Shown: piece by piece, positions 18,647 through 40,083 of the stretch
Layout: the number at the start of each line of letters is the position of its first letter
Numbering within the stretch: position 1 is the stretch's first letter
Translations under genes and position numbers: made by a program
Notes under the pieces: model-generated
Databases searched by the model: none
What the model saw: the letters and a program-made list of their open reading frames with translations, nothing else
Told to the model about the DNA's origin: nothing
Source: Alcanivorax sp. DG881
Lineage (GTDB): Bacteria; Pseudomonadota; Gammaproteobacteria; Pseudomonadales; Alcanivoracaceae
Direction: 5' to 3'
DNA: 54,816 bases
NCBI RefSeq assembly: GCF_000155615.1
Contig: NZ_DS989915.1
Span: 1,019,808-1,074,623 of the forward strand

Positions 18647-20977
18647 ATGGATAAACCTTCTCTGACTGTTGCAAACCGTTCCGTGGCGGAATGGTTATCC
18701 TCCCTTCCCACCCTGATTCTTCTTCTGCTGACTATTTTTCTGGCTTCCGGCGAAGTCATTCACTCTCAGCTACTGAAAATCGGCGAAAACACCTGGGAAG
18801 GCTATTTCCTGCTACGTGGCGCGGGCATGGTGGAGCAACCCACCTGTAACCGTGATCCAGACCTGAATCAGGAACTGGAAAAAGCCATCAAACAGAAAAA
18901 ACAGCAAATGGCTGACGACCCCCTCGCGGGCATCTTCGGCACAGAGGTCGACGAGACAGCCCTGCGCAAGTCACTGGAATCGTCCAGGGCGAACTGTCGC
19001 GGCAAGTGGGAGCGGTACGAGCTTATTCAGGAGAAGGCCACCCCCGGTGTGATTGCCTTCCGAACCCTGGAAGGTGGCGTTGCCAAAGTGGTTACCACCC
19101 TGGGCAACTACAAACGCCTGCTGCTTTGCCTGCTGGTGATGATCTGTGCCGCGACCGCCACATTGAGTCGTCATCATATTTCGCTGCGCCCGGCACACAC
19201 ACGAAAAGATCACTTTGTTTCCAGCGTGGGGCAACTTGCCGCCAACGTGATGCTACTCATGTCTGCCTGGCTGTACCGTGGCGAAGAAATTAGCGCCATG
19301 GCCGACGGGGTTCAGGTTAATCATTTCTATCTGCATCAGTTCTGGATCGCAGGCTTTCTGCTGCTGTCTCTGGCCGCTCTCTACCAGCTGATTCGCCCAC
19401 CCAAAGACCTTGAAGAAGGCGGCACCTGGGGCAAGGCGATGTTGACCATCCCGCTGTACAGCTTCATGTGTCTTACCGCCGGTGCGCAGTTCATCAGCCA
19501 GGGCTACTACCACGGCATCAGCGTCTATCTCGGCATGATGATGGAGCTGTCTACACTGTTCCTGAGCCTGGCGCTGTATATCTGGATTGGTATGTTGCTG
19601 CGCCAGACCAAGATGGCGCATCTGGTCTTCGACGTGTTGCGTCCTTGGAAAATGTCACCAGAGCTGATGTGTTTCGTTGTTCTGGCGGTTGCCGCTGTGC
19701 CCACAGCCTACACCGGCGCCTCCGGCATCTTCGTTATCGCTGCGGGTGCCACCATTTATAACGAACTGGTTCGTGCCGGCGCCCGCAAGCAACTGGCTCT
19801 GGCTGCCACGGCCATGTCCGGCTCCATGGGTGTGGTGCTACGTCCCTGTTTGCTGGTGGTTATCATCGCGGCTCTGAACAACAGTGTAACCACCGATGAA
19901 CTCTTCACGTCCGGCCTGAAAATCTTCGGTCTGTCACTGCTCCTGTTCTTCATTTACAGCCAGTTTGCCCGTACTGCCCCGGCACGTATTGCGCCGTTCT
20001 CGGAAGCGGTTCCCCAGAGTCTGAAACGACTGATCCCGCTGCTGCCCTATGTGATCATCATGGGGACGGTTGTCGTACTCTTCCGTGACCTGCTGGATAC
20101 GGAACTGAACGAAAACTACGCACCGATCATTCTGCCGGTGATGCTGCTGTCTATCCTGGCGTACGAAAAGCTGAGCCAGAAATCCCTGCATGTGTTCACC
20201 GTGGTCCTGGTGCCATTGCTGATCTACTCCTGCTACAACCTGTGGATCATCAATGAAGCACTGAACAGCGGCGCCATTCCCACCGGCACCTCTGCAGAGC
20301 AATTGGAAGGCCTGTTCTGGGGACTGTTCTGGCGTAATGTCATCCTTGGCGCCTGCCTGGTAATCCACTACCTGGTGAAAACCCCGGATATGGATCCGCA
20401 TTATCAGCCAGAGCCTGGCGTGGGCGACAAGATGGAAAGCTCATTGCGCTTTGCGACCAACGAGACTACCGGCCATATTGGCGCCCTGCTGATGTTGATG
20501 GCCCTGTCGGTCAGTGTCGGCGGCATCATCGAGCGTTCCGGCGTCATGGAAATGCTGCCTGAAACCTTCCCGAGCATCTGGCTGGCCATGACCCTGCTGG
20601 TCGTCACCATGGTGATTATCGGCATGATCATGGACCCCTACGGGGCGGTAATTCTGGTCAACGCAACCATTGCCCAAATTGCCTTTGACAATGGTATTGC
20701 GCCATTACACTTCTGGATGATCACCCTGGTGGCCTTTGAGCTGGGTTATCTATCACCCCCTGTGGCACTGAACCACCTGCTGACAAGGCAAGTGGTCGGG
20801 GACGAGGAAGTGGAATCCGCCAAGGTACCGGGTGGCAGCTTCTACCGCCGCTACGAGAAGTTCCTGCTGCCAATCGCGGTGATGCTGACTGCGCTACTGC
20901 TGGTCTCTTACGTACCGCTGATGTCGGACTCGCTCCACGAGTTCCTGTTCCAGAAGATCCAGGTCGGCGTTCACTAA
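18647..20977 (+). CDS. Fused TRAP transporter permease (DctQ-M type), copy 1
   Basis: A 776-aa inner-membrane protein, longer than usual DctQM fusions of about 600-650 aa. The C-terminal 400 residues show DctM features: AYTGASGIFVIAAGATIYNELVRAG, SMGVVLRPCLLVVIIAALN, and near the end NGIAPLHFWM followed by AFELGYLSPPVALNHLL, the counterpart of the TRAP sequence GIDPIHFG...IGLLTPPVGLNLF. The N-terminal part starts with a helix (LILLLLTIFLASGEVIHSQL), then a periplasmic loop of about 100 residues with two conserved cysteines (EPTC-like PTCNRD and ANCRGKW), then more helices. Ligand unknown. Ribosome site is weak. It follows its likely receptor (17435-18451). Confidence 0.85.
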   Translation: MDKPSLTVANRSVAEWLSSLPTLILLLLTIFLASGEVIHSQLLKIGENTWEGYFLLRGAGMVEQPTCNRDPDLNQELEKAIKQKKQQMADDPLAGIFGTEVDETALRKSLESSRANCRGKWERYELIQEKATPGVIAFRTLEGGVAKVVTTLGNYKRLLLCLLVMICAATATLSRHHISLRPAHTRKDHFVSSVGQLAANVMLLMSAWLYRGEEISAMADGVQVNHFYLHQFWIAGFLLLSLAALYQLIRPPKDLEEGGTWGKAMLTIPLYSFMCLTAGAQFISQGYYHGISVYLGMMMELSTLFLSLALYIWIGMLLRQTKMAHLVFDVLRPWKMSPELMCFVVLAVAAVPTAYTGASGIFVIAAGATIYNELVRAGARKQLALAATAMSGSMGVVLRPCLLVVIIAALNNSVTTDELFTSGLKIFGLSLLLFFIYSQFARTAPARIAPFSEAVPQSLKRLIPLLPYVIIMGTVVVLFRDLLDTELNENYAPIILPVMLLSILAYEKLSQKSLHVFTVVLVPLLIYSCYNLWIINEALNSGAIPTGTSAEQLEGLFWGLFWRNVILGACLVIHYLVKTPDMDPHYQPEPGVGDKMESSLRFATNETTGHIGALLMLMALSVSVGGIIERSGVMEMLPETFPSIWLAMTLLVVTMVIIGMIMDPYGAVILVNATIAQIAFDNGIAPLHFWMITLVAFELGYLSPPVALNHLLTRQVVGDEEVESAKVPGGSFYRRYEKFLLPIAVMLTALLLVSYVPLMSDSLHEFLFQKIQVGVH

Positions 20978-21162: not shown

Positions 21163-23490
21163 ATGGCCACATCCCTGCGCATGGAACGGCGTACCGCCCG
21201 AGAGTGGTTTTCCTCCCTGCCGACCCTGCTGCTGCTATTGCTGACGATTTTCCTGGCTTCCGGGCAGGTTATTCATTCCCAACTTCTCTCGATCGGTGAA
21301 AACACCTGGGACAACTATTTTCAACTGCGTAGTGCCGGCGCCCTGAATGAGCCCACCTGCAACGCGGATGCTGACCTGGACAGGGAGCTGGAACGCGCCC
21401 TTGCCGAAAAGAAACAGAAAATGACCGACGACCCCCTCGCCGGTTTTTTTGGCACCGAAATCGATGAAAAGGCGTTGCGCCAGTCCCTGGAGTCCGCACA
21501 AACGCTGTGCCGTGAAAAGTGGGCAAACTACCAAATGGTCCAGGAAAAGGTCACCCCCGGCGTCATTGCCTTTCGCACCCTGGAGGGAGGTGTGGCACAG
21601 GTGGTCAGCATTCTGGGCGACTACAAACGGCTGATTCTTTGCTTGCTGCTGCTCATTTGCGCGGCGACGGCCACCCTGACCCGTCACCATATCGCTTTGC
21701 GCCCGGCACGCACCCGCAAGGATCATCTGGTCTCCACCCTCGGCCAGCTCACTGCCAATGTGCTGCTTCTGGCTTCTGCCTTGATCTATCGCAGTGAGGA
21801 AATCAAGGCGATGGCTGATGGCGTCCAGGTAAACCACTTTTATTTACATCAAGTCTGGATAGGCGGCTTCGCCATTCTCAGCGCCGCGTCTCTCTGGCAG
21901 CTTTTTTCTCCACCCAAGGATCTGGAAGAAGGCGGTAGCTGGGGCAAGGCACTGCTAACGATTCCGCTGTACGCGTATATGTGCCTCAGTGCCAGCATCC
22001 AGTTCATGTCTCAGGGCTACCTGCACGGCACCAGCGTCTACCTGGGCATGATGATGGAATTTTCCACCATGTTTCTCAGCCTGGGGCTTTATATCTGGGT
22101 AGGGATGATGCTGCGACAGACAAAGATGGTGCATCTGGTTTTCGATGTGCTGCGCCCCTGGCGCATGTCACCCGAACTGATGTGCTTTGTGATTCTTGCT
22201 GTTACCGCTATCCCCACCGCCTATACCGGCGCATCCGGTATTTTTATCATCGCTGCCGGTGCAACCGTATACCACGAGCTGGTCCGCGCCGGCGCGAGAA
22301 AGCAGTTGGCACTGGCCGGGGCGGCCATGTCCGGGTCCATGGGTGTTGTGCTGCGCCCCTGTTTGCTGGTGGTCATTATCGCCGCCTTGAATAACAGCGT
22401 GACCACAGATGAACTGTTCACTTCTGGCATCAAGGTCTTCGGTTTATCGCTATTACTGTTCTTCATTTACAGTCAGTTTGCCCGCACCGAACCGGCACGC
22501 ATCGCCCCATTCTCACAAGCGGTTCCCGCAAGCCTGAAACGGCTTGTCCCCCTGCTGCCTTACGTCATTGTCATTGGCACCGTGGTGGTGGTTTTCAGAG
22601 ACATCCTGGGGGCCCAACTTAACGAAAACTATGCGCCCATCATTCTGCCAATGATCATGCTGGCCGTGCTGATCTATGAGAAGTTCAGCCGTCATTTCCT
22701 GCACCTGTGCGCCGCGGTACTGGCTCTACTGCTGATCCATTCAAGCTATGACGCCTGGTTGGTCAGCAACGCACTGGATGCCGGCAATATTCCATCTGGC
22801 ACCTCCGCCAACCAGCTTTCCGATACGTTAACCGGGCTGTTCTGGCGAAACCTGATTCTCGGCATCAGTCTGCTTATCCATTATCTGTTCAAACCCAACG
22901 GCGAGGTATCAGAGCTGCCAGCCAAGGAAGAAGGGGTTGGAACCAACCTGGAAAGCTCTCTGCGCTTCTCCACCAATGAAACCACCGGGCATATTGGTGC
23001 GCTGCTCATGCTGATGGCACTGACCGTCAGCATGGGGGGGCTATTGGAACGCTCGGGGATCATGGAAGCCTTGCCGGAAACGTTCCCTTCGATCTGGGTC
23101 GCCATGACGCTGCTGGTGGTGACCATGGTCATCATCGGCATGATCATGGACCCCTTTGGAGCGGTCATTCTGGTGAACGCGACCATCGCCCAGGTGGCGT
23201 TCGATAACGGCATCGCCCCATTGCACTTCTGGATGATAAGCCTCGTTGCCTTCGAGCTGGGCTACCTGTCTCCACCCGTCGCCCTTAACCACCTGTTGAC
23301 GCGCCAGGTCGTCGGTGATGACGAGGTGGAAAGCGCCAAAGTCATCAATGGCTCTTTCTACCGGCGCTACGAAAAATACCTGTTGCCCATTGCCGTCATG
23401 CTCACGGCCCTGTTGCTGGTTGCCTTTGTGCCGCTGCTCTCTGACAGCCTGCATCACTGGCTATTTCAGAAAATAGACGTCACAGGGTGA
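21163..23490 (+). CDS. Fused TRAP transporter permease (DctQ-M type), copy 2
   Basis: A 775-aa tandem paralogue of the preceding permease; long stretches are identical or nearly so, such as EGGxWGKA, TAYTGASGIF, VLRPCLLVVIIAALNNSVTTDELFTSG, MIMDPxGAVILVNATIAQ and YLSPPVALNHLLTRQVVGD. The extra N-terminal periplasmic loop is kept, with its two cysteines in PTCNAD and TLCREKW. The variable parts are the charged loop before the second cysteine and the linker around residues 540-590. AAGGA lies about 8 nt before the ATG. It has its own gap and terminator but no adjacent receptor, so it probably uses one of the orphan binding proteins upstream. Confidence 0.85.
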   Translation: MATSLRMERRTAREWFSSLPTLLLLLLTIFLASGQVIHSQLLSIGENTWDNYFQLRSAGALNEPTCNADADLDRELERALAEKKQKMTDDPLAGFFGTEIDEKALRQSLESAQTLCREKWANYQMVQEKVTPGVIAFRTLEGGVAQVVSILGDYKRLILCLLLLICAATATLTRHHIALRPARTRKDHLVSTLGQLTANVLLLASALIYRSEEIKAMADGVQVNHFYLHQVWIGGFAILSAASLWQLFSPPKDLEEGGSWGKALLTIPLYAYMCLSASIQFMSQGYLHGTSVYLGMMMEFSTMFLSLGLYIWVGMMLRQTKMVHLVFDVLRPWRMSPELMCFVILAVTAIPTAYTGASGIFIIAAGATVYHELVRAGARKQLALAGAAMSGSMGVVLRPCLLVVIIAALNNSVTTDELFTSGIKVFGLSLLLFFIYSQFARTEPARIAPFSQAVPASLKRLVPLLPYVIVIGTVVVVFRDILGAQLNENYAPIILPMIMLAVLIYEKFSRHFLHLCAAVLALLLIHSSYDAWLVSNALDAGNIPSGTSANQLSDTLTGLFWRNLILGISLLIHYLFKPNGEVSELPAKEEGVGTNLESSLRFSTNETTGHIGALLMLMALTVSMGGLLERSGIMEALPETFPSIWVAMTLLVVTMVIIGMIMDPFGAVILVNATIAQVAFDNGIAPLHFWMISLVAFELGYLSPPVALNHLLTRQVVGDDEVESAKVINGSFYRRYEKYLLPIAVMLTALLLVAFVPLLSDSLHHWLFQKIDVTG

Positions 23491-27570: not shown

Positions 27571-27790
27571 GTTTTCGCCTTGTCCGGGAATGAAAAAGCC
27601 CTTGAAGCGGCTTTCACAGGTCATCGCTGCGCATGAAAAGGGCAAAATGGCCTGCAAAAAAACACACAGGACAGGCCTTGCCGGCAGCGGCAACAGAATT
27701 TGCAACGATTATACGGGCTGTGGCGCTCAATTTCCCGGCGCATTTCTGCTACTCTTTGCGCCGCATTGAAATCGCACAGGAATGACGCTA

Positions 27791-28537
27791 ATGAGCACGA
27801 AACTGGTACTGGTCCGCCACGGCCAGAGCGTATGGAACAAGGAAAACCGCTTCACCGGCTGGAAAGACGTGGATCTGACCGAGCAAGGCCGCGAGGAAGC
27901 CCGCACCGCAGGCGAGCTGCTGAAGGAAGCCGGCTTTGAGTTCGATGTGGCTTACACCTCGGTGCTCAAGCGTGCCGTGCGCACCCTGTGGAGCATTCTG
28001 GACAACATGGACCAGATGTGGATCCCGGTGATCCGTGACTATCGCCTGAACGAGCGCCACTACGGTGCCTTGCAGGGGCTGAACAAGGCGGAAACGGCCG
28101 CCAAGTACGGGGACGATCAGGTCCATATCTGGCGCCGCAGCTACGACACACCACCGCCGAAAATGGAGCGGGACGACGAGCGCTACGCCGGCAACTTCCG
28201 GGTGTACAAGAACCTGAGTGAAGCGCAGATTCCCCTGTCAGAGAGCCTGAAAGACACGGTCGACCGCTTCGTGCCTTACTTCGAAAGCGACATCAAGCCA
28301 CAAATCGAAGCGGGCAAACAGGTGCTGATCTGCGCCCACGGCAACAGCCTGCGCGCGCTGGTGAAATACCTGGGTGACATTTCCGACGAGGAAATCGTCA
28401 AGCTCAACATCCCCACCGGCGTACCGATGGTCTACGAGCTGGACGACAACCTGAAGCCCATCAAGAACTACTACCTGGGCGACGCAGAAGCGGCAGCGAA
28501 AGCTGCTGAAGCGGTGGCCAATCAAGGTAAGGCGTAA
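27791..28537 (+). CDS. gpmA: 2,3-bisphosphoglycerate-dependent phosphoglycerate mutase
   Basis: A 248-aa glycolytic mutase (2-phosphoglycerate to 3-phosphoglycerate). The phosphohistidine is H10 in [12 protein letters not shown]; the second histidine is in [24 protein letters not shown] and [14 protein letters not shown] are the usual active-site lid and Glu segments. The start at 27791 has AGGA about 10 nt upstream; an ATG at 27782 is too close to that site. The C-terminal tail ([16 protein letters not shown]) is alanine-rich. A terminator and heptad arms follow. Confidence 0.95.
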
Positions 28538-28707: not shown

Positions 28708-31700
28708 TCACTGCGCGCCTACCTGACCTTGCATATAATCCTGCCGGCCCGCCTCCCAGGCGGAGCCCAGCACCGCATCGTGATACGGGTTGGCCCCTCC
28801 CCATCCGGCATACAAGCGGCCGCGTTCATAGGCCATCTCCACGGTATCCTGTTCCGATGCCTGCGGCGCTCGCCAGCGGGCCAGCCAGCGCGTGACCAGC
28901 CCTTTCACATCATTGGATACCACCAACAGGCTGGGCACCAGCAACAGGCTCACCAGGGTGGCAAACAGCACCCCGAAGGCCAGCGAGACGGCCATGGGTA
29001 TCAGGAAGCGGGCTTGCACGCTGGTTTCCAGCATCAGCGGTGCAACACCGGCAAAGGTGGTGATGGACGTCAACATTACTGGTCGCAGCCGCCCGCTCAC
29101 CCCCCGAATGACCGCATCCCGTAACGATGCGCCTTTATCCCGGAGGTCGTTGATGGCATCGAGCAATACCAGGTTGTCATTCACCACCACGCCACTCACC
29201 GCGATGATTCCCACCAGCGACCACAGTGTCACGCTGTAACCCAGCAGAAAGTGCCCCATAAAGGCCCCCACCAGCCCAAACGGAATCGCCGCCATCACCA
29301 GCAGGGGCTGGCCATAACCGCCGAACAGAATGGTGAGCAGGAAGAAGATTGCGGCCAATGCAATCAGGTAGCTTATCGACAGGTGTGACAGGAAATCCTT
29401 GATCGCCGCCTGTTTGCCCGCCACCGTCCAGCCGGCTTTATCGTCAGCCGCCATCATCGGATCCAGCAGCGCCTTGCGCAGCTCTGCCATCACCAGAGCT
29501 GGAGACGTGGTGTGTTCATCCACAAAGGCACTCACCGTGGCACTGCGACGACCGTCATAGTGGCTAATCATGGCCGGCGCCTGCCGGCGCGATAGCGAGG
29601 CCACGGCCGCGAGCACGGTCATTTCACCGTCCGCCAGTTGCACCGGCATTCGCTCCAGATCGGTAATCTGGCGACTGTCGGCCTGGGCCAGCCGCAGCAT
29701 CACCGGCACCTCCCGGTCCTGTTCAAACCAGCGATCCAGTTCGATGCCGTGGAACGCATTGCGCACCTGCGCCCCCACTTGCTCGGCCCGCAAACCGGCT
29801 CGCTCCCCTTCTTCACGCAGGTTGATATCCACAATGGTTCGCTGGGCATGCAGATTATTGGCCACCTCGTGGACCCCATCCATGCGCGCCAACGCCAGCG
29901 CCGCCTGCTCGCTCATCCGCTGTAGCGTCGTCAAGTCCGGGTGGAACAGATTGATATGAATATCCGGTTTCACCTGCATCAGGCTGGCATGGAATTTCAC
30001 TGACAACGCATCGGCGATCACCCCGTGCTGATCGCGCCACCGCCGCGCGATTTCCCGAGGCGGCAGGGCGCTGGTATCACCGCTGATCGCCAGGGTCACC
30101 CGAACCCGGTATCGCGCACCGGGATCACGAGCGTTGGAGGTTTTCTGGCGCACGCCCTGTTCGGCAAACACCGCATCGATGTGGATCGGTGCCTCGGCTT
30201 GAGCAGCCTCACCGTCCCCTGCCAGCTGGCGAGCCAGAGCCTGGGCGGAATCTTCCAGCTCCCTTACTTCCCGTGCCAGACGAGGATCACCGGTGCCCTG
30301 CGGGAACACCACTTCCGCCATCACCCGGTCGCCTTCCACCCGGGAGAACAACACCATGGTCAACCAGCCGCTGTTAACCAACGCGCAGCAGAAAACAAAC
30401 AGACCCACGAATACCACCACCAACACATAACGCCAGTGCAGGCAGCGTTGCAGAATCGGCCGGGCACGCTGGTCCAGCCAGCGCTCCAGACCATCGTTAA
30501 GGCGCGTAGCCAGTTGTTCGGATTTCAGCCACAGCCCCCGCGCCGGACGATCGTGGCTCAAGTGGGCTGGCAAAATCCACAGCGACTCCACCAGCGACAG
30601 CAACAGGATGGTCATCGAGACGATGGGAATAACCCGCATCAATGCCCCTTCCGGCCCCGGCAGGAACAACAAGGGAGCAAAGGCAAAAAGCGTGGTCATG
30701 ACCGCAAACAAAATCGGTTTCGCCACCCGTTGCGCCCCACTGATAGCGGCTTGCCCCCCGGTCAGCCCCTGGCGGCGTTGGTGGTCAATGCTTTCGCCCA
30801 CGATCACCGCATCATCCACCACAATCCCCAGCACCAGAATAAAGGCGAACAGGGAGATGGTGTTGAAGGACTCGCCCAGCAACGGCAGCATGGCGCAGGC
30901 ACCGAGCATGCACACGGGAATCCCCAGTGCCACCCAGCCCGCCAGCCGCAGGGTCAGGAAGATGGCCAGCATGAGCGTCAGCAGCACCAGGCCTTGCAAG
31001 GCGTTACGCCAGAGCAGGTTGGAGCGCTCACTGAACTGGCGAGCATCGTCACTCCACACCTGTAACCCGACACCGGGAGGCAGATCCGCTTCTGCCAGGT
31101 AGTCACGCACAGCCCCGGCCACATCCAGCACGTTCTGATCGCCAACCCGGTACACATCCAGCGCCACCGCCGGTTTGCCATCCAGCCAGGCCGCCTGGGT
31201 GTCCCGGGAAAAACCGTCCTGCACCTGGGCCACATCGCCCAGGCTCAACAAGTCCCCCTGCTCCGACTGGCGGATCACCAGTTGCTCATAAGCGCGGGCA
31301 TCACCAGGTTGCTCGCCGGTCTGCAGCAGCCAGTCGCCCTTGTCGCTGCGCAGCACACCGCCGGCGATGCGCTGCACGCTCTGGCTGGCTGCAGCTGCAA
31401 TACCATCCAGCGTCAGCTCGTAGCGATACAGGTCATCACGGGAGACCAGCAGCGCCATTTCCCGTTCCGGCAGGTTTTCAATATCCACGCTGGAAATAGC
31501 ATCGCGGTTGAGCAGCTGCCGGCGAACCCGGTTGCCCAGCTGGTACAGATCCGTACGGGACAGGGAGCCGCTGAGCAGCAACCGCACCACCCGGTTACGC
31601 ACAATCAGCTCCTGCACCCGCGGGCGTGCGGCCCCCTTGGGCAGGTTATCCAGAGCATCCAGGCGCGTGCGGATCTGCTCCAGCACATCGCCCGTGTCAT

Positions 31701-31998
31701 GCCCTTCCAGCACATCCAGCTGCACGCTGCACAACCCCTCACGGGATTCGCTGATCAGCTCAGTGCCGCCCTCCACATCGTCCACCGCGGTTTCCACCGG
31801 CGTACACACCAGCGATTCCACGGTTTCCGGGGTGGCCTGGGGATACGCCACATAAATGCCAATGCGGTCCAGCGGCACATTGGGCAGGGTTTCCTGACGG
31901 GTATGGGGAATCGCCAGCAGCCCTGCCAGCAACAGGGTCATCATCAACAGGTTGGCAACCGCCCCATTTCTGGCGAACCAGGCAATGGAACGATTCAT
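28708..31998 (-). CDS. RND-family efflux pump inner-membrane protein
   Basis: A 1096-aa proton-driven transporter of the AcrB/HAE1 type. It shows two repeats of the TM layout: the N-terminal helix (AVANLLMMTLLLAGLLAIP), porter domains, and TM4 with the proton relay aspartates LVLGIVVDDAVIVGESI near residue 400. Repeat two has SVTLWSLVGIIAVSGVVVNDNLVLLDAINDL and LRPVMLTSITTFAGVAPL. Length matches the family (about 1030-1100). It is the last gene of the six-gene operon; its ATG overlaps the adaptor stop (ATGA). The substrate is unknown but presumably a product of the upstream enzymes. Ends before a bidirectional terminator. Confidence 0.92.
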   Translation of the reverse strand: MNRSIAWFARNGAVANLLMMTLLLAGLLAIPHTRQETLPNVPLDRIGIYVAYPQATPETVESLVCTPVETAVDDVEGGTELISESREGLCSVQLDVLEGHDTGDVLEQIRTRLDALDNLPKGAARPRVQELIVRNRVVRLLLSGSLSRTDLYQLGNRVRRQLLNRDAISSVDIENLPEREMALLVSRDDLYRYELTLDGIAAAASQSVQRIAGGVLRSDKGDWLLQTGEQPGDARAYEQLVIRQSEQGDLLSLGDVAQVQDGFSRDTQAAWLDGKPAVALDVYRVGDQNVLDVAGAVRDYLAEADLPPGVGLQVWSDDARQFSERSNLLWRNALQGLVLLTLMLAIFLTLRLAGWVALGIPVCMLGACAMLPLLGESFNTISLFAFILVLGIVVDDAVIVGESIDHQRRQGLTGGQAAISGAQRVAKPILFAVMTTLFAFAPLLFLPGPEGALMRVIPIVSMTILLLSLVESLWILPAHLSHDRPARGLWLKSEQLATRLNDGLERWLDQRARPILQRCLHWRYVLVVVFVGLFVFCCALVNSGWLTMVLFSRVEGDRVMAEVVFPQGTGDPRLAREVRELEDSAQALARQLAGDGEAAQAEAPIHIDAVFAEQGVRQKTSNARDPGARYRVRVTLAISGDTSALPPREIARRWRDQHGVIADALSVKFHASLMQVKPDIHINLFHPDLTTLQRMSEQAALALARMDGVHEVANNLHAQRTIVDINLREEGERAGLRAEQVGAQVRNAFHGIELDRWFEQDREVPVMLRLAQADSRQITDLERMPVQLADGEMTVLAAVASLSRRQAPAMISHYDGRRSATVSAFVDEHTTSPALVMAELRKALLDPMMAADDKAGWTVAGKQAAIKDFLSHLSISYLIALAAIFFLLTILFGGYGQPLLVMAAIPFGLVGAFMGHFLLGYSVTLWSLVGIIAVSGVVVNDNLVLLDAINDLRDKGASLRDAVIRGVSGRLRPVMLTSITTFAGVAPLMLETSVQARFLIPMAVSLAFGVLFATLVSLLLVPSLLVVSNDVKGLVTRWLARWRAPQASEQDTVEMAYERGRLYAGWGGANPYHDAVLGSAWEAGRQDYMQGQVGAQ

Positions 31999-33179
31999 GG
32001 ATGTCCCTCACCACTGTTCTCGCTGTGATGGGCCAGACCGGTCTGGGCCGGGCGTGGATCAATCCGCATGCCTTCCAGCAATTGCAGATCCCCGGCCAAC
32101 ACCACCGACGTCTCGCTGTTGACTCCATCGTGGAGGTAGAGGTTGTCACTGTCCTGATGCAGTATCGCCACCGACTGACGGCGCAGACGCTGGTCGTCGT
32201 CCAGCACCCAGACAGACTGGTCACCGGCCTGGGCAGAACGGGGCAACACCGCCACCGCCGGCGTCGCCGCACCGCGCAGTTCCGCCTGCACCAGTACACC
32301 GGGCTCCAGTGGCAATGACTGACCGTCATTGGCGACCTGCACGATCAGGTACATCATCTGGTTGCGGTTCAGCCCCCCTTCACGGCGCACCACCTTGCCT
32401 TCCCAGTGCCCCTCCCTGCCGGCGAAACGGCCGGTAAGGATCACACTGACCGCCTCCAGAGTGCTGTCATCACCAGGCACGATACCCAGCAAGCCAAGCC
32501 ACTCATCACGGACCGGCAGGCGAATTTCCACCTGGTCTTCCTGGTACAACTGGGCCAGCTTGCTGCCCGCCTGCACATGCTGCCCTGCCATCACCTGCAC
32601 GGCTTTCAGGCGCCCGCTGATCGGCGCCAGCAATTCGGTCTGTTCCTGGTTACGCTCCGCCTGACGCAGGCTGGCACGGGCAGCACTCAGCCGGCTCAGG
32701 GCTTCGTCCAGTTGCGGTTCGAACCGCCCCAGCGCCGACGAGCGCCCGGAAGCCCCGGACACCCGCGCCTTGGCCCGGGTCTGGGCCAGGTGCAGACGCG
32801 CCGCATGGACACTGTTCTGACGTGAGGTCACCTCCAGCGCAAAGGGCTCCGGGTCCAGCTTGAGCAACACATCGCCAGCAGCCACTCGCCCACCATCGGC
32901 AAACGCCGGCGCCACCTGCTGGATTCGCCCGGAGACTTCCAGACTCAAGGGCAGATCATGGCGCGCCGTGGCCTGCCCCTGGCTATAGACCGGAATCACC
33001 ACATCCTGCCAGTCCACAGTCATGGTATTGAGGGCCAGCACACTATCCTGAGCCTTGGCCGGCGGCGGCGCCGGTGGCACCAGATAAAGCGAAAAAACGG
33101 CCATCGCCATGGCCAGGGTGGCCAGCAATGCCACCAGTGTTCGCAAGCTGAGAGAACGCAAACCGGCAGGCAACTTCAT
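31995..33179 (-). CDS. Periplasmic adaptor (HlyD / membrane-fusion) subunit
   Basis: A 394-aa membrane-fusion protein that links an RND pump to an outer-membrane channel. An N-terminal anchor helix (about 12-34, LRTLVALLATLAMAMAVFSLYLVP) is followed by a lipoyl/hairpin region (GRIQQVAPAFADGGRVAAGDVLLKLD, AARLHLAQTRA..ASLRQAERNQEQTELLAPISGRLKAV) and barrel domains. The hairpin is typical. Its stop overlaps the RND start, and its start overlaps the acyltransferase stop, both ATGA. No outer-membrane channel gene is seen in the window. Confidence 0.9.
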   Translation of the reverse strand: MKLPAGLRSLSLRTLVALLATLAMAMAVFSLYLVPPAPPPAKAQDSVLALNTMTVDWQDVVIPVYSQGQATARHDLPLSLEVSGRIQQVAPAFADGGRVAAGDVLLKLDPEPFALEVTSRQNSVHAARLHLAQTRAKARVSGASGRSSALGRFEPQLDEALSRLSAARASLRQAERNQEQTELLAPISGRLKAVQVMAGQHVQAGSKLAQLYQEDQVEIRLPVRDEWLGLLGIVPGDDSTLEAVSVILTGRFAGREGHWEGKVVRREGGLNRNQMMYLIVQVANDGQSLPLEPGVLVQAELRGAATPAVAVLPRSAQAGDQSVWVLDDDQRLRRQSVAILHQDSDNLYLHDGVNSETSVVLAGDLQLLEGMRIDPRPAQTGLAHHSENSGEGHP

Positions 33180-34180
33180 TCAACCACTCCCAGCCAATTA
33201 ACCCAGCGCTGTAAGCACTGGCGCACCGTGGCTTGCGGCGCGCCCAGGGATGAGTGCACTTTCAGGGACAGGCTCATGCAGCCATTCACCACAATCACAC
33301 CGTTGGCGACCGGATGGCTCGGGCTGCCCGGGCCGCAGCAGGCAAACACGGTATCTTCCCGCATCCCTGCGGAGGCAAAGTCGATCTCCCATTCACCCAG
33401 GCTGGAAAAAGACCCGCAGTGCTGCGTCCCTTTCTGCAGGCGCCCACACAACCAGTTCACTCCCCGCTGGCCGATCAAGCGTCCAATACGCGCCAGATGC
33501 CAATACCGCCAGTGCACATTGGCCTTGAGGTAGCCACGCACGGAACGGTCCAGCCTGGCGGCCTTGTCTTCATGATCCACAGTGAGATAGAACGCGCTGG
33601 ACAGGTTCATATCCGCGCGCAGCATGGGCACCACACCGCGCATGTTCACCGGAAAGCACCAGCTACCGGCAATGCCGTGCAACATCAGGGTCTCGCAGAC
33701 CGCCCGGTGCAACGCCAGTAATAGCAAGCTGTTCACCGACACCTTGTTTTGGTGAGCCCGCTGATACAGCGCACGGGTCTGCGCCGGATTCAACCATTGC
33801 ACGCAGACCGGGCTGTCTTCGATTTCTTCAGCTTCTGCTTGCCCAGCCAAGGCCCGCCAGCGGCGCCACACCGGTTCCACCGCAGGCAGATCGTCCGGCA
33901 ACCGTTGCCAACGCTGCCACCAGCGCGGTGCCTGCTTCTGGCGGCTCAACGGCATGGGAGGCTGTGCCACCCCGCGTTGTTTCAGGGCCTGGGCAATACC
34001 GCCCACCCCATCATGGTCCCGATGACGCAGGGCGACAGTATCGCGTTCACCACTGCACGGATCGATAAAGATAAATTCGATGCGATCATCAATACCCAGC
34101 CCGGCTCGGGCGCGATACCACATGCCGATATAATCCACCGGCGGCCGGGACGACAGGGTGCGGGTCGACACGGTATTCAC
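33176..34180 (-). CDS. CoA-dependent acyltransferase, condensation-domain superfamily
   Basis: A 334-aa protein with the sequence LRHRDHDGVGGIAQ near 51-64. This fits the HHxxxDG active-site motif of condensation and wax-ester/PapA-type acyltransferases, with His53 as the likely base and Arg in place of the first His. Later features, CFPVNMRGVVP near residue 187 and NLSSAFYLTV, match the second half of that fold (NxR and S/T-rich strands). It is smaller than wax ester synthases (about 450 aa) and NRPS condensation domains. The start is GTG at 34180, overlapping the GNAT stop. Substrates are unknown; context suggests it acylates or condenses a GH3-activated compound. Confidence 0.6.
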   Translation of the reverse strand: MNTVSTRTLSSRPPVDYIGMWYRARAGLGIDDRIEFIFIDPCSGERDTVALRHRDHDGVGGIAQALKQRGVAQPPMPLSRQKQAPRWWQRWQRLPDDLPAVEPVWRRWRALAGQAEAEEIEDSPVCVQWLNPAQTRALYQRAHQNKVSVNSLLLLALHRAVCETLMLHGIAGSWCFPVNMRGVVPMLRADMNLSSAFYLTVDHEDKAARLDRSVRGYLKANVHWRYWHLARIGRLIGQRGVNWLCGRLQKGTQHCGSFSSLGEWEIDFASAGMREDTVFACCGPGSPSHPVANGVIVVNGCMSLSLKVHSSLGAPQATVRQCLQRWVNWLGVVE

Positions 34181-35268
34181 AGGCGCGCCACTTCCACATA
34201 GGGCAGGCGATCATCGAGTTGCTCGCGGGGATCGCCGTCATAACTCACCAGAAAGTGATCGCTCAACAACAGACGACGGCGGTAGCGGGCCGGTACCGTT
34301 GCCAGTGGATCCTGGGCAAAGAAGCCACACACCAGTGCATCATATCGGCCATGGAAACGGTCCACCGCGTGATCAAGCAACAGACGCAACAAATCAGGCT
34401 GGTTATCTTCCACCACCACACTGTGCAAGGTGAGATAAGACAGAATGCCGCCGGGCGCAGGCAGCTTCATGCCACCGCGCAACACGCTATGGGTATTGTA
34501 GAAGTGGCGTAGAAACCGCAGGCCCCGGGCATAACCCAACACGCGCGTCTGCTTTATACCCTGCTGATCCCAGAATCCCAGCACCCCTTTGAGCTGCCCC
34601 TTGACCCATAGCCCAAGAAAGCTTTCCGGGTTCAGTCCATAACAATAGGCATCACCGCGTACCCGGCTGACATCCCAGTAGGGGAAGAACTGCTTGCTGG
34701 CCCCTTCGCGTTGCAACAATGCCGCCATGGCGGGCAGGTCGGCTTCACCGGTTTGCCGGATTTGCACATCTTTTGGCAGCCGCTGATGGCGCGCCCGGGT
34801 ATACACCAGGCTGGTCTCGATCGTGCCGTGGGGGTAATAGGTGGGCAGCCCGGCACGGCCACTGGCCACCGAGCCCAGCGAGGCCTCGTTGTCGCGCAGC
34901 ACCGTGGTCTGCATCCACTCGCCCTCGGACAGTTGCTTGCGCAACTGGCGAAACAGGCGGTGCAGCACCAGGCCATTACGGAATTGCGGCGCGATACGTA
35001 AATCGTGAGCATAGCGAATCGGTTTCACCTCGCCATTCACCCACAGGTGCCGCCAACCCACATTGTAGACAGCGCCCAGTTCACCGGCACCGCCCTTGGG
35101 CTCAGCCACCCACACGTCCGGCTGTTCGCAGGTCACCTGGGCACCCCGGAAGTAATCCGGATGCCGCTCAAAATTCAGGGTCACCGCGCCGTGCTGGGGC
35201 GTCCCCTGCAGCAGCGCCAGGATGGCCCCGTTATCCTGGTCACAGGCAGGCCGGATGCGGTAACTCAT
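34177..35268 (-). CDS. Tandem GNAT-type N-acyltransferase
   Basis: A 363-aa protein with two GNAT-like halves. The first (about 1-150) has IRPACDQDNGAILALLQG and the acyl-CoA loop HDLRIAPQFRNGLVLHRLFRQL, near V/I-x-R-x-x-R/G-x-G/A. The second (about 160-363) starts VQIRQTGEADLPAMAALLQREG and ends with a GVLGFWD..GYARGLRFLRHFY segment. The ATG at 35268 is chosen over an upstream start because GGAG precedes it and it overlaps the GH3 stop (ATGA). Substrate unknown; an acyl transfer to an amine of the product is a natural guess. Confidence 0.6.
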   Translation of the reverse strand: MSYRIRPACDQDNGAILALLQGTPQHGAVTLNFERHPDYFRGAQVTCEQPDVWVAEPKGGAGELGAVYNVGWRHLWVNGEVKPIRYAHDLRIAPQFRNGLVLHRLFRQLRKQLSEGEWMQTTVLRDNEASLGSVASGRAGLPTYYPHGTIETSLVYTRARHQRLPKDVQIRQTGEADLPAMAALLQREGASKQFFPYWDVSRVRGDAYCYGLNPESFLGLWVKGQLKGVLGFWDQQGIKQTRVLGYARGLRFLRHFYNTHSVLRGGMKLPAPGGILSYLTLHSVVVEDNQPDLLRLLLDHAVDRFHGRYDALVCGFFAQDPLATVPARYRRRLLLSDHFLVSYDGDPREQLDDRLPYVEVARL

Positions 35269-36890
35269 ACCGTCACTCCGGGTGCCTCTGTTTGTGCCGA
35301 GCGCGCTTCCAGCCAGGTCGGCACCCTCCCTGCCCAGTACTGCAGGGACTCCATCTTGATGTTGCCTTCGATCATGCCGCGTTGACGGCAATGCTGCAGA
35401 TAACGCTCACGCATGCCCGGATGAATAACGCAGCGCAAAGGCGCCAACTGCCCCAGATTGCGCGCCAACTGATAATGAAAGTGCAACTGCAACGCCGACT
35501 CCATTTGCACCGCTATGTGCTGGGCAACGGCCGGGTTCTCCCCTTCCAGTAACAGCACATAGCCAGGCAAACCCTGCGCGGATTGATCCACCGCCACCGT
35601 GCATACGGGTAGCAATTCCTCCGGTAACGCCAGGGCGGCCATGGCACCATCCACAGCGGCCGCCGTCATTTTTTCGCCGACCAGATCAGTGGTTCCTGCT
35701 CGGCCAAGGAAACGCAAGCTGGGAATACCGCCGACAAAATCATCCACTTCCACCAGATCTTTCAGCCGGTAACGCAACAAACCGCTGCCGGTACTCAGCA
35801 GCGGCATGACCTGCTGCCCGGCCTCCAATTCCCAGGGCGCGAAGATACGGCCATCGGTAGGGTCCTGAAATTCATACACGTGACTGCGATACGCCAGCGG
35901 ATAACGCCCTGCATAGGGAATGGTGACCACGCCTTCGGTGGCCCACAGTCCTTTGCCCTGAAACGCGGCCTGGGGAAGTAAAGCATGCAGCTCTTTCGCC
36001 CACGGCGTGGAGGCCGCCGTATCCCAGGCACTCACCAACGCCAGCTTTGGCCACAACGCCATCAGGAAATCCGCGTTTAACCGGCCGTCCCACTCGCGCA
36101 ACAAGGCTGCCGCTTGCGGAGACCAGGGGCAGGAATCCACCGCACCACCAAGCATGCGGTTCCCCCAGGATCCGCTGTTAAGCACCTCTGCCAGCTCCTC
36201 TCGCCACTGCGCCATGGCACGCAGCATCCCCAACCCGAAAGTGGGACTCCAGATCGAAAGCATGGACAGGGCCGGATCGCTGACCAGATAGGCAAGGGTG
36301 GCAAACAGGGAATCATCGGAGGTTCTGGCCAGCGCCACATCCTGCGGCACACACTGGGTCGCACCGGCCAGCAAGCGCTTGCCCATGGACATCAGCTGAA
36401 TGTCGTCATTCACATCCTCGCGCATATTGTCGCGCAGCGAGGTGGGCACCCAGGACATGGACCAGTAATGCCGCCCCTGCACCAGCCGGGGGTACTGCCG
36501 GTACAAATCCACAATCCAGGGGCTGATGGCCGCATCCAGTTCACCAAGAAACTGGCGTGTATAGGGAATCCATTTAATCGCGGACGTGGAGCCACTGGTT
36601 GGCTGGCAGCGAACCAGGGGGGAATCGATCAAGCGACAATCACCGTGCTCGCGCGACAAGGTAATCGCATCCGCCCATTGCTCATAATCCGTAACCGGCT
36701 GCCGGTCCGCAAACGCCTCCCACGACCAGTCACCCCGAATGCCGTTTCGATGCCCCAGCGGGCTGGCTGCCACCCGCTTTAGCAGCGCGGCCTGTTTCTG
36801 TCGCTGTACCGATTCCAGCCGCTCACGGCCAGCCGCAAAACGACGCTCACCTGGCCAGGCGGCCAGTTTCAGAAGACGATGTCCAAACAT
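35265..36890 (-). CDS. GH3-family acyl-acid adenylating / amido-synthetase enzyme
   Basis: A 541-aa member of the GH3 (auxin-responsive promoter) family of adenylate-forming enzymes, which activate carboxylic acids with ATP and transfer them to amines, typically amino acids. The three ANL-type motifs are in order: P-loop CQPTSGSTSAIKWIPYT (97-111), LWATEGVV (315-322), and YRLKDLVEVDDF (374-385) followed by FLGRAGTTDLVGEKMT. Length fits GH3 proteins (about 550-600 aa). GH3 proteins are uncommon in bacteria. The ribosome site is weak. It is the second gene of the operon and lies 13 nt after the first. Confidence 0.88.
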   Translation of the reverse strand: MFGHRLLKLAAWPGERRFAAGRERLESVQRQKQAALLKRVAASPLGHRNGIRGDWSWEAFADRQPVTDYEQWADAITLSREHGDCRLIDSPLVRCQPTSGSTSAIKWIPYTRQFLGELDAAISPWIVDLYRQYPRLVQGRHYWSMSWVPTSLRDNMREDVNDDIQLMSMGKRLLAGATQCVPQDVALARTSDDSLFATLAYLVSDPALSMLSIWSPTFGLGMLRAMAQWREELAEVLNSGSWGNRMLGGAVDSCPWSPQAAALLREWDGRLNADFLMALWPKLALVSAWDTAASTPWAKELHALLPQAAFQGKGLWATEGVVTIPYAGRYPLAYRSHVYEFQDPTDGRIFAPWELEAGQQVMPLLSTGSGLLRYRLKDLVEVDDFVGGIPSLRFLGRAGTTDLVGEKMTAAAVDGAMAALALPEELLPVCTVAVDQSAQGLPGYVLLLEGENPAVAQHIAVQMESALQLHFHYQLARNLGQLAPLRCVIHPGMRERYLQHCRQRGMIEGNIKMESLQYWAGRVPTWLEARSAQTEAPGVTV

Positions 36891-36903
36891 GATATTTCCC
36901 GGC

Positions 36904-37677
36904 TTATTCGCAGGCCACAGCGGTCACTGCAGGCTTGGTTTTACGGCGCTTTTTTTGCCAAAGCTGAAACGGATAGCTAACCAGGAGCTTCAGGTTAACC
37001 TGTCCGATACAGGGCAATTCCGTACCGCGCTGCCAGGATGGATTTTGTTTTTCAAAAAACTGGATTTTTTCGTTCGCCAAACGCATTTCGTCAGAAATAC
37101 CCGCCACATCGGATTTCAGATGTGTGTACCCCTCACCAAAATCAAGAAGACGGCGCTGATTGCAGTAATAATCAGAAAAGAGAGATTGGCAGTACGCATC
37201 AACCAGCGGCGCTAACCGCTGATCCTTTCCCTCTGGGTTGGGGTAATAATTATGGAAATTATTCGCCAGCAAAAGATAGGTTTTATATCCCTTGGAAATC
37301 AGCAACCAAAACATGGGGCGAAACGGATGGCGTATTTTTTCGCGAATCATCCGGAAGAAAAACTTCACTTGAAGCGCTTTGCTACCCCAGTATTTTTCTT
37401 CAATGATGGTGTCACCACTAAACACGCCCTTTACCCGGCGACCCTCCACGTTCATGTCGATAACTTTCAAGGTAGAAAAACCAACCACACGCTTGGTTGC
37501 TTTCTCCTCCACTAAAAATATACCGCTCTTTTCCACCATATCCTGGCAAAAAATATCCAGGCTTATATTTTCGTAGTACCCGGAGTAGATCTCATACATT
37601 CTTCGCATTATGGGTACCGACACCTTGGAAAGGGGCAGATATCGGGCTTTCAGGTTAGATGCATTTTCCCGTTGCAT
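36904..37677 (-). CDS. GNAT-like acyltransferase, first gene of the GH3 operon
   Basis: A 257-aa protein with a probable GNAT fold: IFLVEEKATKRVVGFSTLKVID, then VKGVFSGDTIIEEKYWGSKALQVKFF in the place of the acetyl-CoA loop. It has many aromatic residues (NNFHNYYPNPEGKD) and a basic C-terminus (WQKKRRKTK), and no signal peptide. Exact family unknown; LuxI-like autoinducer synthases share the fold but I see no convincing motif. The start has GGAG about 8 nt upstream. Being first after the control region, it leads the operon. Confidence 0.5.
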   Translation of the reverse strand: MQRENASNLKARYLPLSKVSVPIMRRMYEIYSGYYENISLDIFCQDMVEKSGIFLVEEKATKRVVGFSTLKVIDMNVEGRRVKGVFSGDTIIEEKYWGSKALQVKFFFRMIREKIRHPFRPMFWLLISKGYKTYLLLANNFHNYYPNPEGKDQRLAPLVDAYCQSLFSDYYCNQRRLLDFGEGYTHLKSDVAGISDEMRLANEKIQFFEKQNPSWQRGTELPCIGQVNLKLLVSYPFQLWQKKRRKTKPAVTAVACE

Positions 37678-37880
37678 TTTCCCGCTCCATGATTATTTTT
37701 ATGCGTTGAAAAGCGGTGCTCATGATCTACACGGACCGTGATTTACTTAATAGTCAAAGCGGCCATTTTTTTGTTAAAAATGGCAACACTGGTTTAAACC
37801 AGTAACAATAACGCGTCCAATGAGACGCGTATCACACCTAAAATAACAACAATGTCAGGCCATATGGCCGAGGCAGAAAA
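37678..37880. promoter_or_regulatory. Palindrome-rich divergent control region (GH3 operon / AraC regulator)
   Basis: The 203-bp gap between the divergent operon and regulator holds four inverted repeats: CCATTTTT...AAAAATGG at 37763-37783, the perfect palindrome ACTGGTTTAAACCAGT at 37788-37803, ACGCGTC-N6-GACGCGT at 37811-37830, and GGCCATATGGCC at 37858-37869. It is also far more AT-rich than its surroundings. The last palindrome abuts the regulator ribosome site (GAGG at 37870-37873). These are good candidate operators; which protein binds is inferred. Confidence 0.7.
37788..37803. promoter_or_regulatory. Perfect 16-bp palindrome, candidate operator
   Basis: ACTGGTTTAAACCAGT is identical to its reverse complement. 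It lies 111 bp before the operon start and 78 bp before the regulator start, suitable for controlling both directions. Confidence 0.65.
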
Positions 37881-38972
37881 ATGAAAAATAATGGAATGGC
37901 TTTGGACGTTCCGCTAATTTCTATTCGCTATGCCCGCCGTTTTTTACGGTTCACACAAAAACACGGGATAAGTGGAACCATCGTACTCAAAGAAGCCCGC
38001 ATCGACCCCGCCTTACTGGATAACCCGGATGCCTTTCTGACCATGAGGCAGCTTCTCACCATGCTCCGTCATGCCGACGCCCTTCTCAAAGACGACACCG
38101 CATCATTTCGCTTTGGTCAGGAACTGGATTTACAGGGTCATGGCCTGCTGGGTTTTGCCCTGCTTCGCCAACAGGATTACCGCAAACTGGTTAATATGGT
38201 GGTGCAATATCTGCGCGTTTCATTACCTATCATGGATATGGAAATCCACTGCACAGGCGAAGACATCTCCATTCGCCTGCATGACAGCTGGGAGCTAGGC
38301 GAACTAAGACCTTTTGTTACCAACATCTACATGGGCAGCATTCATGCACTGGCATCGCTTGTCTGTCGCCGTTTCACGTTTGAATACGATTATCCGTGCC
38401 CAGCCAAAGCTTCCAGTTTCCAGCATCTTGGCGAAGGCATCGAAATGAAATTCAACTGTGAGCACAACCGCGTACTGCTGCCACTATCCGGCCGCCAGGC
38501 TCGTGATGATGACGCCACCGTGGCCAACTATCTGGCCACGGCCCGGTCCCAGGAGCAGGCCCAGGGCGATGAAAGTCTCAAGGTCGTCATTCAGGTACGC
38601 CATGAAATCCGCAACGCTCCCGGCCGTGACAGCACCCTGGAACGGGTAGCCGCCAAGCTGGGCATGAGCCCTCGTTCTGTACGCCGCCATTTGAGCCTGT
38701 CCGGGTTTGCCTTCAGCGGCCTTCGCAACGAAATTCGTGAAATGTTTGCCACCCGCTACCTGGTGGACACCGATATGGCACTGGAAAAAATTGCTGAGTA
38801 TCTGGGCTACAGCGACCAGGCCAGTTTCAGCAAGGCCTACCGGGGCTGGACAGGGCACACCCCCGGAGAAGTCCGCCGCAACGCCAAAGTACCGCCCCCT
38901 TCCTGGGACAGCGCAGAAGAAGAGCACCAGAATGTACCCGACGGCGAAACACCCTCTCGGCCGGGCCATTGA
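37881..38972 (+). CDS. AraC-family transcriptional regulator
   Basis: A 363-aa regulator. The N-terminal part (about 15-210) resembles the arabinose-binding-type domain used by OruR/PhbR-like members (PF12625), e.g. DALLKDDTASFRFGQELDLQGHGLLGFALLRQQDYRKL. The C-terminal double HTH (about 255-345) is clear: TLERVAAKLGMSPRSVRRHLSLSGFAFSGL for helix one and ALEKIAEYLGYSDQASFSKAYRGWTGHTPGEVR for helix two. It is divergent from the GH3 operon and upstream of a fifth solute-binding gene, so either or both may be targets. Ribosome site GAGG at 37870-37873. Confidence 0.9.
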   Translation: MKNNGMALDVPLISIRYARRFLRFTQKHGISGTIVLKEARIDPALLDNPDAFLTMRQLLTMLRHADALLKDDTASFRFGQELDLQGHGLLGFALLRQQDYRKLVNMVVQYLRVSLPIMDMEIHCTGEDISIRLHDSWELGELRPFVTNIYMGSIHALASLVCRRFTFEYDYPCPAKASSFQHLGEGIEMKFNCEHNRVLLPLSGRQARDDDATVANYLATARSQEQAQGDESLKVVIQVRHEIRNAPGRDSTLERVAAKLGMSPRSVRRHLSLSGFAFSGLRNEIREMFATRYLVDTDMALEKIAEYLGYSDQASFSKAYRGWTGHTPGEVRRNAKVPPPSWDSAEEEHQNVPDGETPSRPGH

Positions 38973-39090: not shown

Positions 39091-40083
39091 ATGAAGAAGC
39101 TGTTCACCGCCGTTGTCACGGCCTGTGCGCTCACTGCCTCCCTCTCCGTGCAGGCAGAGACCATTAAACGCAAAATCTGTGTATTCGATATTGTCGGTAA
39201 TGTGGGCCCGGTAATGGGTGCCATGAAAGACTGGAAAGCCGCCGCACTGGACTGGGGCCTGGAAACCGAGCTGGTGCCCTACACCAACGAAGCCATTGCG
39301 GCGGAAGACCTGAAAGCCGGTGTCTGTGATGCCTCCTTGATTACCGGTATCCGCGGCCGGGCGTTCAACAAATACGCCGGCACGGTTGATTCCATTGGTG
39401 CCATCCCTTCCATGGACCACATGAAAGTGGTGTTGCAGGTTCTCTCTCACCCCCAGAGCGCAGACAAACTGTCACAGGGCTCCTACCAGATCATGGGGAT
39501 TGCGCCTGCAGGTGCTGCGTATGTATTCGTTAACGATCGCCAGGTGAACTCCCTGGCCAAAGCGGCCGGCAAGAAAGTGGCCGTGCTGGAATATGATGAA
39601 ACCCAGGCCAAGCTGGTTTCCCAGGTCGGCGCCACACCGGTTGCCTCGGACATCACCAACTTCTCCACCAAGTTCAACAATGGGGTGGTAGACGTGATCG
39701 CTGCGCCACTGGTTGCCTACAACGCGCTGGAACTCTACAAGGGCCTGAGCCCGGACGGTGGCATCATCAATTATCCGCTGGCCCAGCTGACCATTCAGCT
39801 GATCGCCAAGAAAGACAAATTCCCGGCAGACATGGCGCAAAAATCCCGGGAGTATTTCTACAACAACCTGCACCGCATCACCGATCAACTGGACAAAGAA
39901 GCCCAGCACGTGGACAAGCGTTGGTGGGTGGAAATCCCCGATGCAGACAAGGCCGAGTACGAAGTAATGATGCAGGAAGCCCGCAACCAGCTTCGTGACG
40001 AAGGCTACTACGACCCGGACATGCTGACCCTGCTGCGCAAGGTTCGCTGCAAGATGGAACCGGCGCGGGCGGAGTGTACTTAA
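39091..40083 (+). CDS. Periplasmic solute-binding protein, TRAP-like (paralogue 5)
   Basis: A 330-aa paralogue, the shortest, with a clear signal peptide (MKKLFTAVVTACALTASLSVQA) and the core starting directly with KRKICVFDIVG. All four family cysteines are present (ICVFDI, GVCDASLI, VRCKMEPARAEC, which ends the protein). Shared motifs: TGIRGRAFNKYAGTVDSIGAIP, KFNNGVVDVIAAP and LELYKGLSPDGG. It is most like paralogue 4 in organisation but lies about 20 kb away, beside the AraC regulator and GH3 operon, with no permease nearby. Ribosome site AGGAAGAG ahead of the ATG. Confidence 0.77.
   Translation: MKKLFTAVVTACALTASLSVQAETIKRKICVFDIVGNVGPVMGAMKDWKAAALDWGLETELVPYTNEAIAAEDLKAGVCDASLITGIRGRAFNKYAGTVDSIGAIPSMDHMKVVLQVLSHPQSADKLSQGSYQIMGIAPAGAAYVFVNDRQVNSLAKAAGKKVAVLEYDETQAKLVSQVGATPVASDITNFSTKFNNGVVDVIAAPLVAYNALELYKGLSPDGGIINYPLAQLTIQLIAKKDKFPADMAQKSREYFYNNLHRITDQLDKEAQHVDKRWWVEIPDADKAEYEVMMQEARNQLRDEGYYDPDMLTLLRKVRCKMEPARAECT

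Follow-up and report, generated by a model that had tools for sequence, protein, structure and literature searches.

A conserved GH3 and GNAT gene core with exchangeable exporters in Alcanivorax sp. DG881 and other bacteria: a candidate route to an exported fatty N-acyl amide

Six genes standing in a row on the minus strand, and a regulator gene reading away from them, lie in a 54,816-nucleotide stretch of the 3.8-Mb genome of Alcanivorax sp. DG881 (G000:C2:1019808-1074623; the whole stretch is here called the window, and positions are counted from its first letter). An earlier note, made from the letters alone, took them to be an operon that makes and exports an acyl-amide or acyl-ester small molecule, and all the open reading frames that it named are present at the coordinates it gave. 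First in the operon is gnat1 (36904..37677), whose 257-residue product has a single GNAT fold; 13 nt further on comes the gene for a GH3-type acyl-adenylating ligase of 541 residues (35265..36890), and then tGNAT (34177..35268), encoding a tandem GNAT protein of 363 residues with a conserved flush C-terminus, ...VEVARL. These three form the core triad. Behind them are COND (33176..34180), for a condensation-superfamily-like acyltransferase of 334 residues with HxxxDG at residues 53-58, the gene for a periplasmic adaptor of the HlyD/RND_mfp kind (31995..33179) and that for an RND inner-membrane pump of 1096 residues (28708..31998). Each of the last four junctions is a 4-nt overlap of stop and start, ATGA at 35268-35265, GTGA at 34180-34177, and ATGA again at 33179-33176 and 31998-31995. 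An upstream TTG would be an alternative start for tGNAT, giving 34177-35391, and the start at 35268 is preferred as it agrees with the aligned starts in relatives. The divergent AraC-type regulator gene is on the plus strand (37881..38972), and about 110 bp ahead of the gnat1 start there is a conserved operator-like element with TTGCC/TGGCC direct repeats (37747..37786, minus strand).

A Pfam scan of the window proteins gave clear names to the ligase (GH3, 1.2e-28, together with GH3_M and GH3_C, so that its N-terminal, central and C-terminal domains are all over cut-off), the adaptor (HlyD_3, 4.3e-12; RND_mfp TIGR01730 is also over cut-off), the pump (ACR_tran, 3.7e-138) and the AraC protein (HTH_18, 6.5e-18; Arabinose_bd, 7.9e-17). 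With ACR_tran and RND_mfp both found, pump and periplasmic adaptor are both present. The same scan gave no match for gnat1 or tGNAT, and the operon has no polyketide synthase (PKS) or nonribosomal peptide synthetase (NRPS) gene.

Is this arrangement kept elsewhere? A search for the gene set in related genomes, suggested in the earlier note as a check, found the gene order to be conserved. In a relatives set of 57 genomes, 36 of the same family (Alcanivorax and kin, its own genome included) and 21 others, GH3 is present in 30, i.e., in 29 of the 36 and one of the 21. Thirty GH3 loci were read, of which 28 are the family's orthologous loci; each of these has gnat1 adjoining GH3 and tGNAT following (cut by the contig end in L035). 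COND was found in 25 of these 28 (L035 meets its contig end, and there was no match in L041 or L047), as were the orthologous adaptor and pump (again with the contig end in L035, and with the pump cut in L038), while L048 and L051 have instead opposite-strand replacements, the pump 32-33% and the adaptor about 27% identical.

Searching the genome collection with the gnat1 profile (A1) gave 340 relatives, and the best 80 of the 340 are the named loci considered below; tallies over them are for that reason biased to near relatives, and two of them, L156 and L162, are from one isolate. Among the holders are Alcanivorax, Alloalcanivorax, Marinobacter, Thalassolituus, Oleibacter, Bacterioplanes, Moraxellaceae and Pleionea, and also Pseudomonas benzenivorans and many Aquabacterium and other Burkholderiales. 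The closest named relatives of the window are Alcanivorax, its gnat1 being 94% identical to that of Alcanivorax sp. NORP25 (L084); the only closer gnat1 match (96%) is in L083, a metagenome contig labelled Pelagibacterium sp. The operon of L083 is Alcanivorax-like and that of L147, labelled Pedobacter sp., is Moraxellaceae-like, and both are probably misbinned metagenome contigs.

All three triad genes are in one locus, on the same strand, in 77 of the 80 named loci, the exceptions being L105 (GH3 only, at a contig end), L141 (which ends at gnat1) and L162 (gnat1 alone, with room left), whose isolate has its triad at L156. A length filter before the counts kept 76 of 79 relatives for A5 and 73 of 75 for A6. 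With the window included, the gap between gnat1 and GH3 is 30 nt or less in 67 of 77 measured loci, GH3 and tGNAT overlap or touch in 45 of 76, and adaptor and pump genes do so in 25 of 38, by a 4-nt overlap in 19. In L103 gnat1 and GH3 form a single reading frame, perhaps through a contig error. The order is retained in genera whose flanking genes are unlike those of the window. Such retention despite differing flanks, with tight junctions in relatives, is far beyond chance.

Do the three core genes also come and go together across genomes? One class-level draw of 369 genomes was examined with profiles for gnat1, GH3 and tGNAT, in a genome search that scores only the best first-look candidates, so that weak relatives may escape it. 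Strong gnat1 matches (E <=5e-45) are in nine genomes (G000, G057, G091, G210, G222, G252, G265, G312 and G356) and strong GH3 matches (<=3.5e-60) in the identical nine; all of these except G057, eight in number, also have tGNAT (E up to 0.001), and none of the remaining genomes does. There is a weak gnat1 match in G149 (2.8e-4), and weaker GH3 matches turn up in 11 further genomes, none of which has a gnat1 match. A phylum-level draw had gnat1 in 6 of 299 genomes, two of them (G000 and G018) in the family. The distance matrices of gnat1, GH3 and tGNAT correlate with each other at 0.90-0.96, and that of the RND pump with the three at 0.81-0.88, values that are supporting evidence only as shared genome ancestry is not removed from them. 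A partial relative of the arrangement is seen in L055, from another family (G046), where gnat1 (31%) adjoins GH3 (27%) and a third, overlapping gene has no match to the tGNAT profile.

Beyond the triad the exporter is exchanged. The first one met after tGNAT in the 80 loci is a same-strand RND pump in 43, an unrelated opposite-strand RND pump in 3, an ABC ATPase in 11 and an MFS protein in 1, typing having been by BLAST against one Pfam-named example per kind, the window's own pump standing for the Alcanivorax RND, so that other kinds would escape. COND is in 35 of the 80, ahead of any exporter in 28 (L083 ends before its exporter) and after it in the 7 that are of Moraxellaceae type. Of the 45 loci without it, 21 have a longer condensation-type protein encoded no more than about 5.3 kb away on the opposite strand, and a condensation-type enzyme is accordingly beside the triad in 56 of the 80. 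In distant clusters, triad genes or gnat1 stand beside genes for a Rieske oxygenase, an AurF-like oxygenase, radical-SAM/B12 pairs, fatty-acid desaturases or P450; these genes were hand-picked, ten per Pfam scan, and are a selection and not a count. The desaturase, Rieske, P450 and AurF-like neighbours suggest tailoring of fatty chains. At L078 and G356:C7 gnat1 has around it a pair of radical-SAM/B12 genes, one desaturase gene and one of AurF-like type, with GH3 and tGNAT together on another contig.

How secure is the assignment of COND? Its Pfam match, to PapA_C, is sub-threshold (E 8.6e-5, 22.5 bits against a cut-off of 30), and its profile searched against solved structures finds PapA5 (1q9j) at 0.0027 and PvdL at 0.23. 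In the HxxxDG motif H53, D57 and G58 are invariant in 16 of 16 sequences, and the motif is in all 32 proteins read. The longer type has it in 21 of 21, and of six longer members scanned with Pfam five match Condensation (one above cut-off) and the sixth PapA_C weakly. The possibility that two unrelated condensation enzymes are involved was rejected, since the profiles of COND and the longer type find each other, if weakly (best 20.4 and 18.4 bits); these mutual matches point to distant members of one superfamily and lend support to the condensation assignment of COND. What COND shares with the PapA5/NRPS condensation superfamily is HxxxDG and weak profile matches to PapA5, PvdL and the condensation proteins of Burkholderiales loci; it differs in being a stand-alone protein, of 311-375 amino acids in 32 relatives, from an operon free of PKS and NRPS genes.

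The profile of the GH3 protein matches plant GH3 structures, at best with 6.1e-21, and the three nucleotide motifs are all present, TSGST at 98-102, WATE at 316-319 and GLLRYRLKD at 370-378. The second is divergent from the motifs of OlsH and of plants, with only its Glu in agreement. Domains and ATP motifs are those of the plant GH3 acyl-acid amido synthetases, but the sequence here is distant and the gene belongs to a lipid-type operon that includes an exporter. The Ser of TSG, which is invariant, corresponds to Ser115 of OlsH, given as essential in PMC12493201. At L046, G024 has a second, distant GH3 (23-31% identical) close to a different RND pump and adaptor; GH3 and exporters may have become paired on more than one occasion.

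When profiles of gnat1 and tGNAT were searched against sequences with solved structures, no convincing match came up. Structure prediction does give GNAT folds in both, as had been claimed of them, and the Foldseek matches of each include acetyltransferases. The tGNAT model is a double GNAT that is N-myristoyltransferase (NMT)-like along its full length; bacterial double GNATs match comparably, and the idea of NMT as the sole fold neighbour was dropped because Foldseek ties the two. Identity to eukaryotic NMT is 10-13%, the window tGNAT has no match to the Pfam NMT families, and of 74 members a single one gives NMT_C, at E 0.17. NMT uses its own C-terminal carboxylate as base. A flush Arg-Leu end is present in 80 of 83 distinct tGNAT proteins, pooled from two retrieval routes with identical proteins counted once (72 of 75 for the named loci alone), and the 8 distant tGNAT proteins, two of which are nearly identical, all end flush in L, I or M. 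This end suggests that the terminal carboxylate of tGNAT may be catalytic.

What of regulation? Among the 80 loci a divergent AraC gene is present in 30 and missing from 44, with 6 not judged. An 11-species alignment of the intergenic region contains a single block that is conserved, TTGCC-n-TTTTTAACAAAAAA-n-TGGCC-nn-TTT, with 21 bp from TTGCC to TGGCC, a spacing often seen in AraC-family tandem half-sites. The element has a single match in the genome at up to 3 mismatches. It is 106-112 bp ahead of gnat1 in all 15 loci from L083 to L097, with at least 24 of 27 positions agreeing, and fewer than 18 of 27 agree in the 400 bp before every other readable named gnat1, including those of L098-L100, which have no divergent AraC gene. 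Its consensus is also absent from other genera that do have such a gene (e.g., the Moraxellaceae-type loci). The region had been described as palindrome-rich, and an 8-bp inverted repeat is there at 37811-37830, but it is unconserved across the 11 species; upstream inverted repeats were on that ground set aside as the conserved element, the tandem direct repeat being kept instead.

Gene order, co-occurrence, families, folds, exporter exchange and conservation of the operator-like element are computed results; they establish a real, conserved gene set and speak for a single functional unit. Co-occurrence of the triad, the exchange of RND, ABC and MFS exporters, and the presence of two condensation types beside the same triad make joint work and export well supported. 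To that extent the proposal of the earlier note holds; the acyl-amide or acyl-ester product that it named is a candidate that fits the enzyme families. Our own preferred reading, to which we give a probability of roughly 0.6, is that the AraC-controlled operon makes and exports a fatty N-acyl amide, and this amide is probably acylated a second time before export. GH3 would, with ATP, activate a fatty acid to acyl-AMP and join the acyl group to a small amine or amino acid. gnat1 and tGNAT would perform further obligatory acyl transfers on the same backbone, tGNAT probably using its own C-terminal carboxylate as base in the manner of NMT. The condensation-type enzyme would then acylate the compound through an ester or an amide bond, adaptor and pump would export the product, and the divergent AraC protein would turn the operon on through the tandem operator.

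Various points weigh against this reading. Each step of the chemistry, the sequence in which the steps follow, and the donors and acceptors are what we infer, as are the transport direction and control by AraC, and for the chemistry and product this counts against it. gnat1 is without the Q/RxxGxG/A acyl-coenzyme A (CoA) loop that is usual in GNATs, and so may not use CoA; tGNAT has Foldseek matches also to Eis-like and glucosamine-acetylating bacterial tandem GNATs, one with a TM-score above that of NMT, so that it may take an acetyl donor. COND is short and under the Pfam cut-off, and its top structure-search line is an antifreeze-protein repeat (1.5e-7, with no stretch passing alone), which is taken for a spurious match. 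In G356 gnat1 is on a different contig from the other two core genes. The operon has no outer-membrane factor gene, no exporter was recognised in 14 of the 80 loci (a contig edge ends 8 others), and the lack of COND in 45, some cut by contig ends, has been given above. With such exporter and COND absences, what stands of the six-gene unit proposed earlier is the core of gnat1, GH3 and tGNAT, and the pump and condensation enzyme are accessory.

Could the product rather be a small non-lipid metabolite, with GH3 adenylating an aromatic or other acid, the GNATs acetylating and the pump exporting or detoxifying? This is the rival that survives best, and it is unlikely. Plant GH3s act on hormones and benzoates, to go by the names of structure entries, both GNATs have acetyltransferases among their matches as noted above, and RND pumps export many compounds; set against these are the desaturases beside the core or gnat1 in distant clusters, the PapA-type similarity of COND, and the fact that several named holders are in genera known for hydrocarbon degradation.

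That the operon is a second OlsH/OlsI-type route to ornithine lipids (aminolipids), with its product kept in the membrane, is improbable in turn. According to PMC12493201, OlsH-OlsG-OlsI is an ornithine-lipid operon of Singulisphaera acidiphila in which OlsH is a GH3-like N-acyl-ornithine synthase and OlsI an alpha/beta-hydrolase O-acyltransferase, and its authors expect other N-acyl amino acids from other bacterial GH3s. It is the nearest known system, and shares one enzyme family only. Alike are a GH3-like ligase of similar size, a second acyltransferase and recognisable nucleotide motifs; the OlsH-OlsG-OlsI operon has nothing to match the two GNATs, COND or the pump, and AraC is a further difference. 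By Pfam the six genes here include no alpha/beta-hydrolase OlsI and no methyltransferase OlsG. Moreover, an OlsB-like gene (PF13444, 3.5e-32; this family is not specific alone, a control search having matched E. coli too) with an acyltransferase gene behind it (PF01553, 6.4e-23; an OlsA candidate) is found elsewhere in the genome, and this separate pair weakens the ornithine-lipid reading.

Still less probable is mere adjacency, in which the RND pair is for drug efflux and simply adjoins a lipid operon: pump distances do track the core less closely than core genes track each other, and some loci are without a recognised exporter, but the four-nt overlaps, that between adaptor and pump included, are retained in relatives, and ABC or MFS exporters occupy the same place. 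Anti-phage defence was discarded, four operon proteins having had no PADLOC match.

If the preferred reading of an exported lipid amide is correct, the compound could be a surfactant, a signal or a membrane modifier linked to life on oil. A bolder extension of it is possible, though doubtful: that a bacterial counterpart of NMT, with the terminal-carboxylate mechanism, makes with GH3 and a second GNAT an obligatory core for new multiply acylated exported lipid amides, one shared by hydrocarbon-degrading Gammaproteobacteria and Burkholderiales and tailored elsewhere by radical-SAM, Rieske, desaturase and AurF-like enzymes. In either case bacterial GH3 enzymes gain a second, testable context, and tGNAT makes it possible to examine in a bacterial protein the terminal-carboxylate mechanism that N-myristoyltransferase is known for. 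The gene set is kept by most of an oil-degrader family and by less related bacteria, and as far as found is undescribed in print: no published account of it was among the literature matches listed, and no known pathway was found to match the operon. Being without PKS or NRPS genes, it may be overlooked by common genome-mining rules.

The RND gene ends the operon, the next gene (27782-28537, opposite strand) being of the histidine-phosphatase family; on the other side, past the AraC gene, is one for an AdeT-type solute-binding protein (39091-40083). Four genomes, G015, G032, G033 and G034, have no GH3 genome-wide, and in 20 kb read of each there is no operon gene between the flanking genes, remnants in G015 aside. 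There, between the phosphatase and AdeT genes (L173:11123-11580), one remnant resembles GH3 residues 435-509 (52% identity, E 3e-18) and a second the AraC protein in its C-terminal portion (E 6e-7), which is read as deletion with scars. Could the product be glycine-glucolipid, of which A. borkumensis SK2 is a known producer according to PMC10684412 and PMC10710537? That reading was set aside as G015, a putative SK2 genome, is without the operon. Elsewhere in the window, DctM-type transporter matches are found in two consecutive genes of about 775 codons each, at 18647-20977 and 21163-23490.

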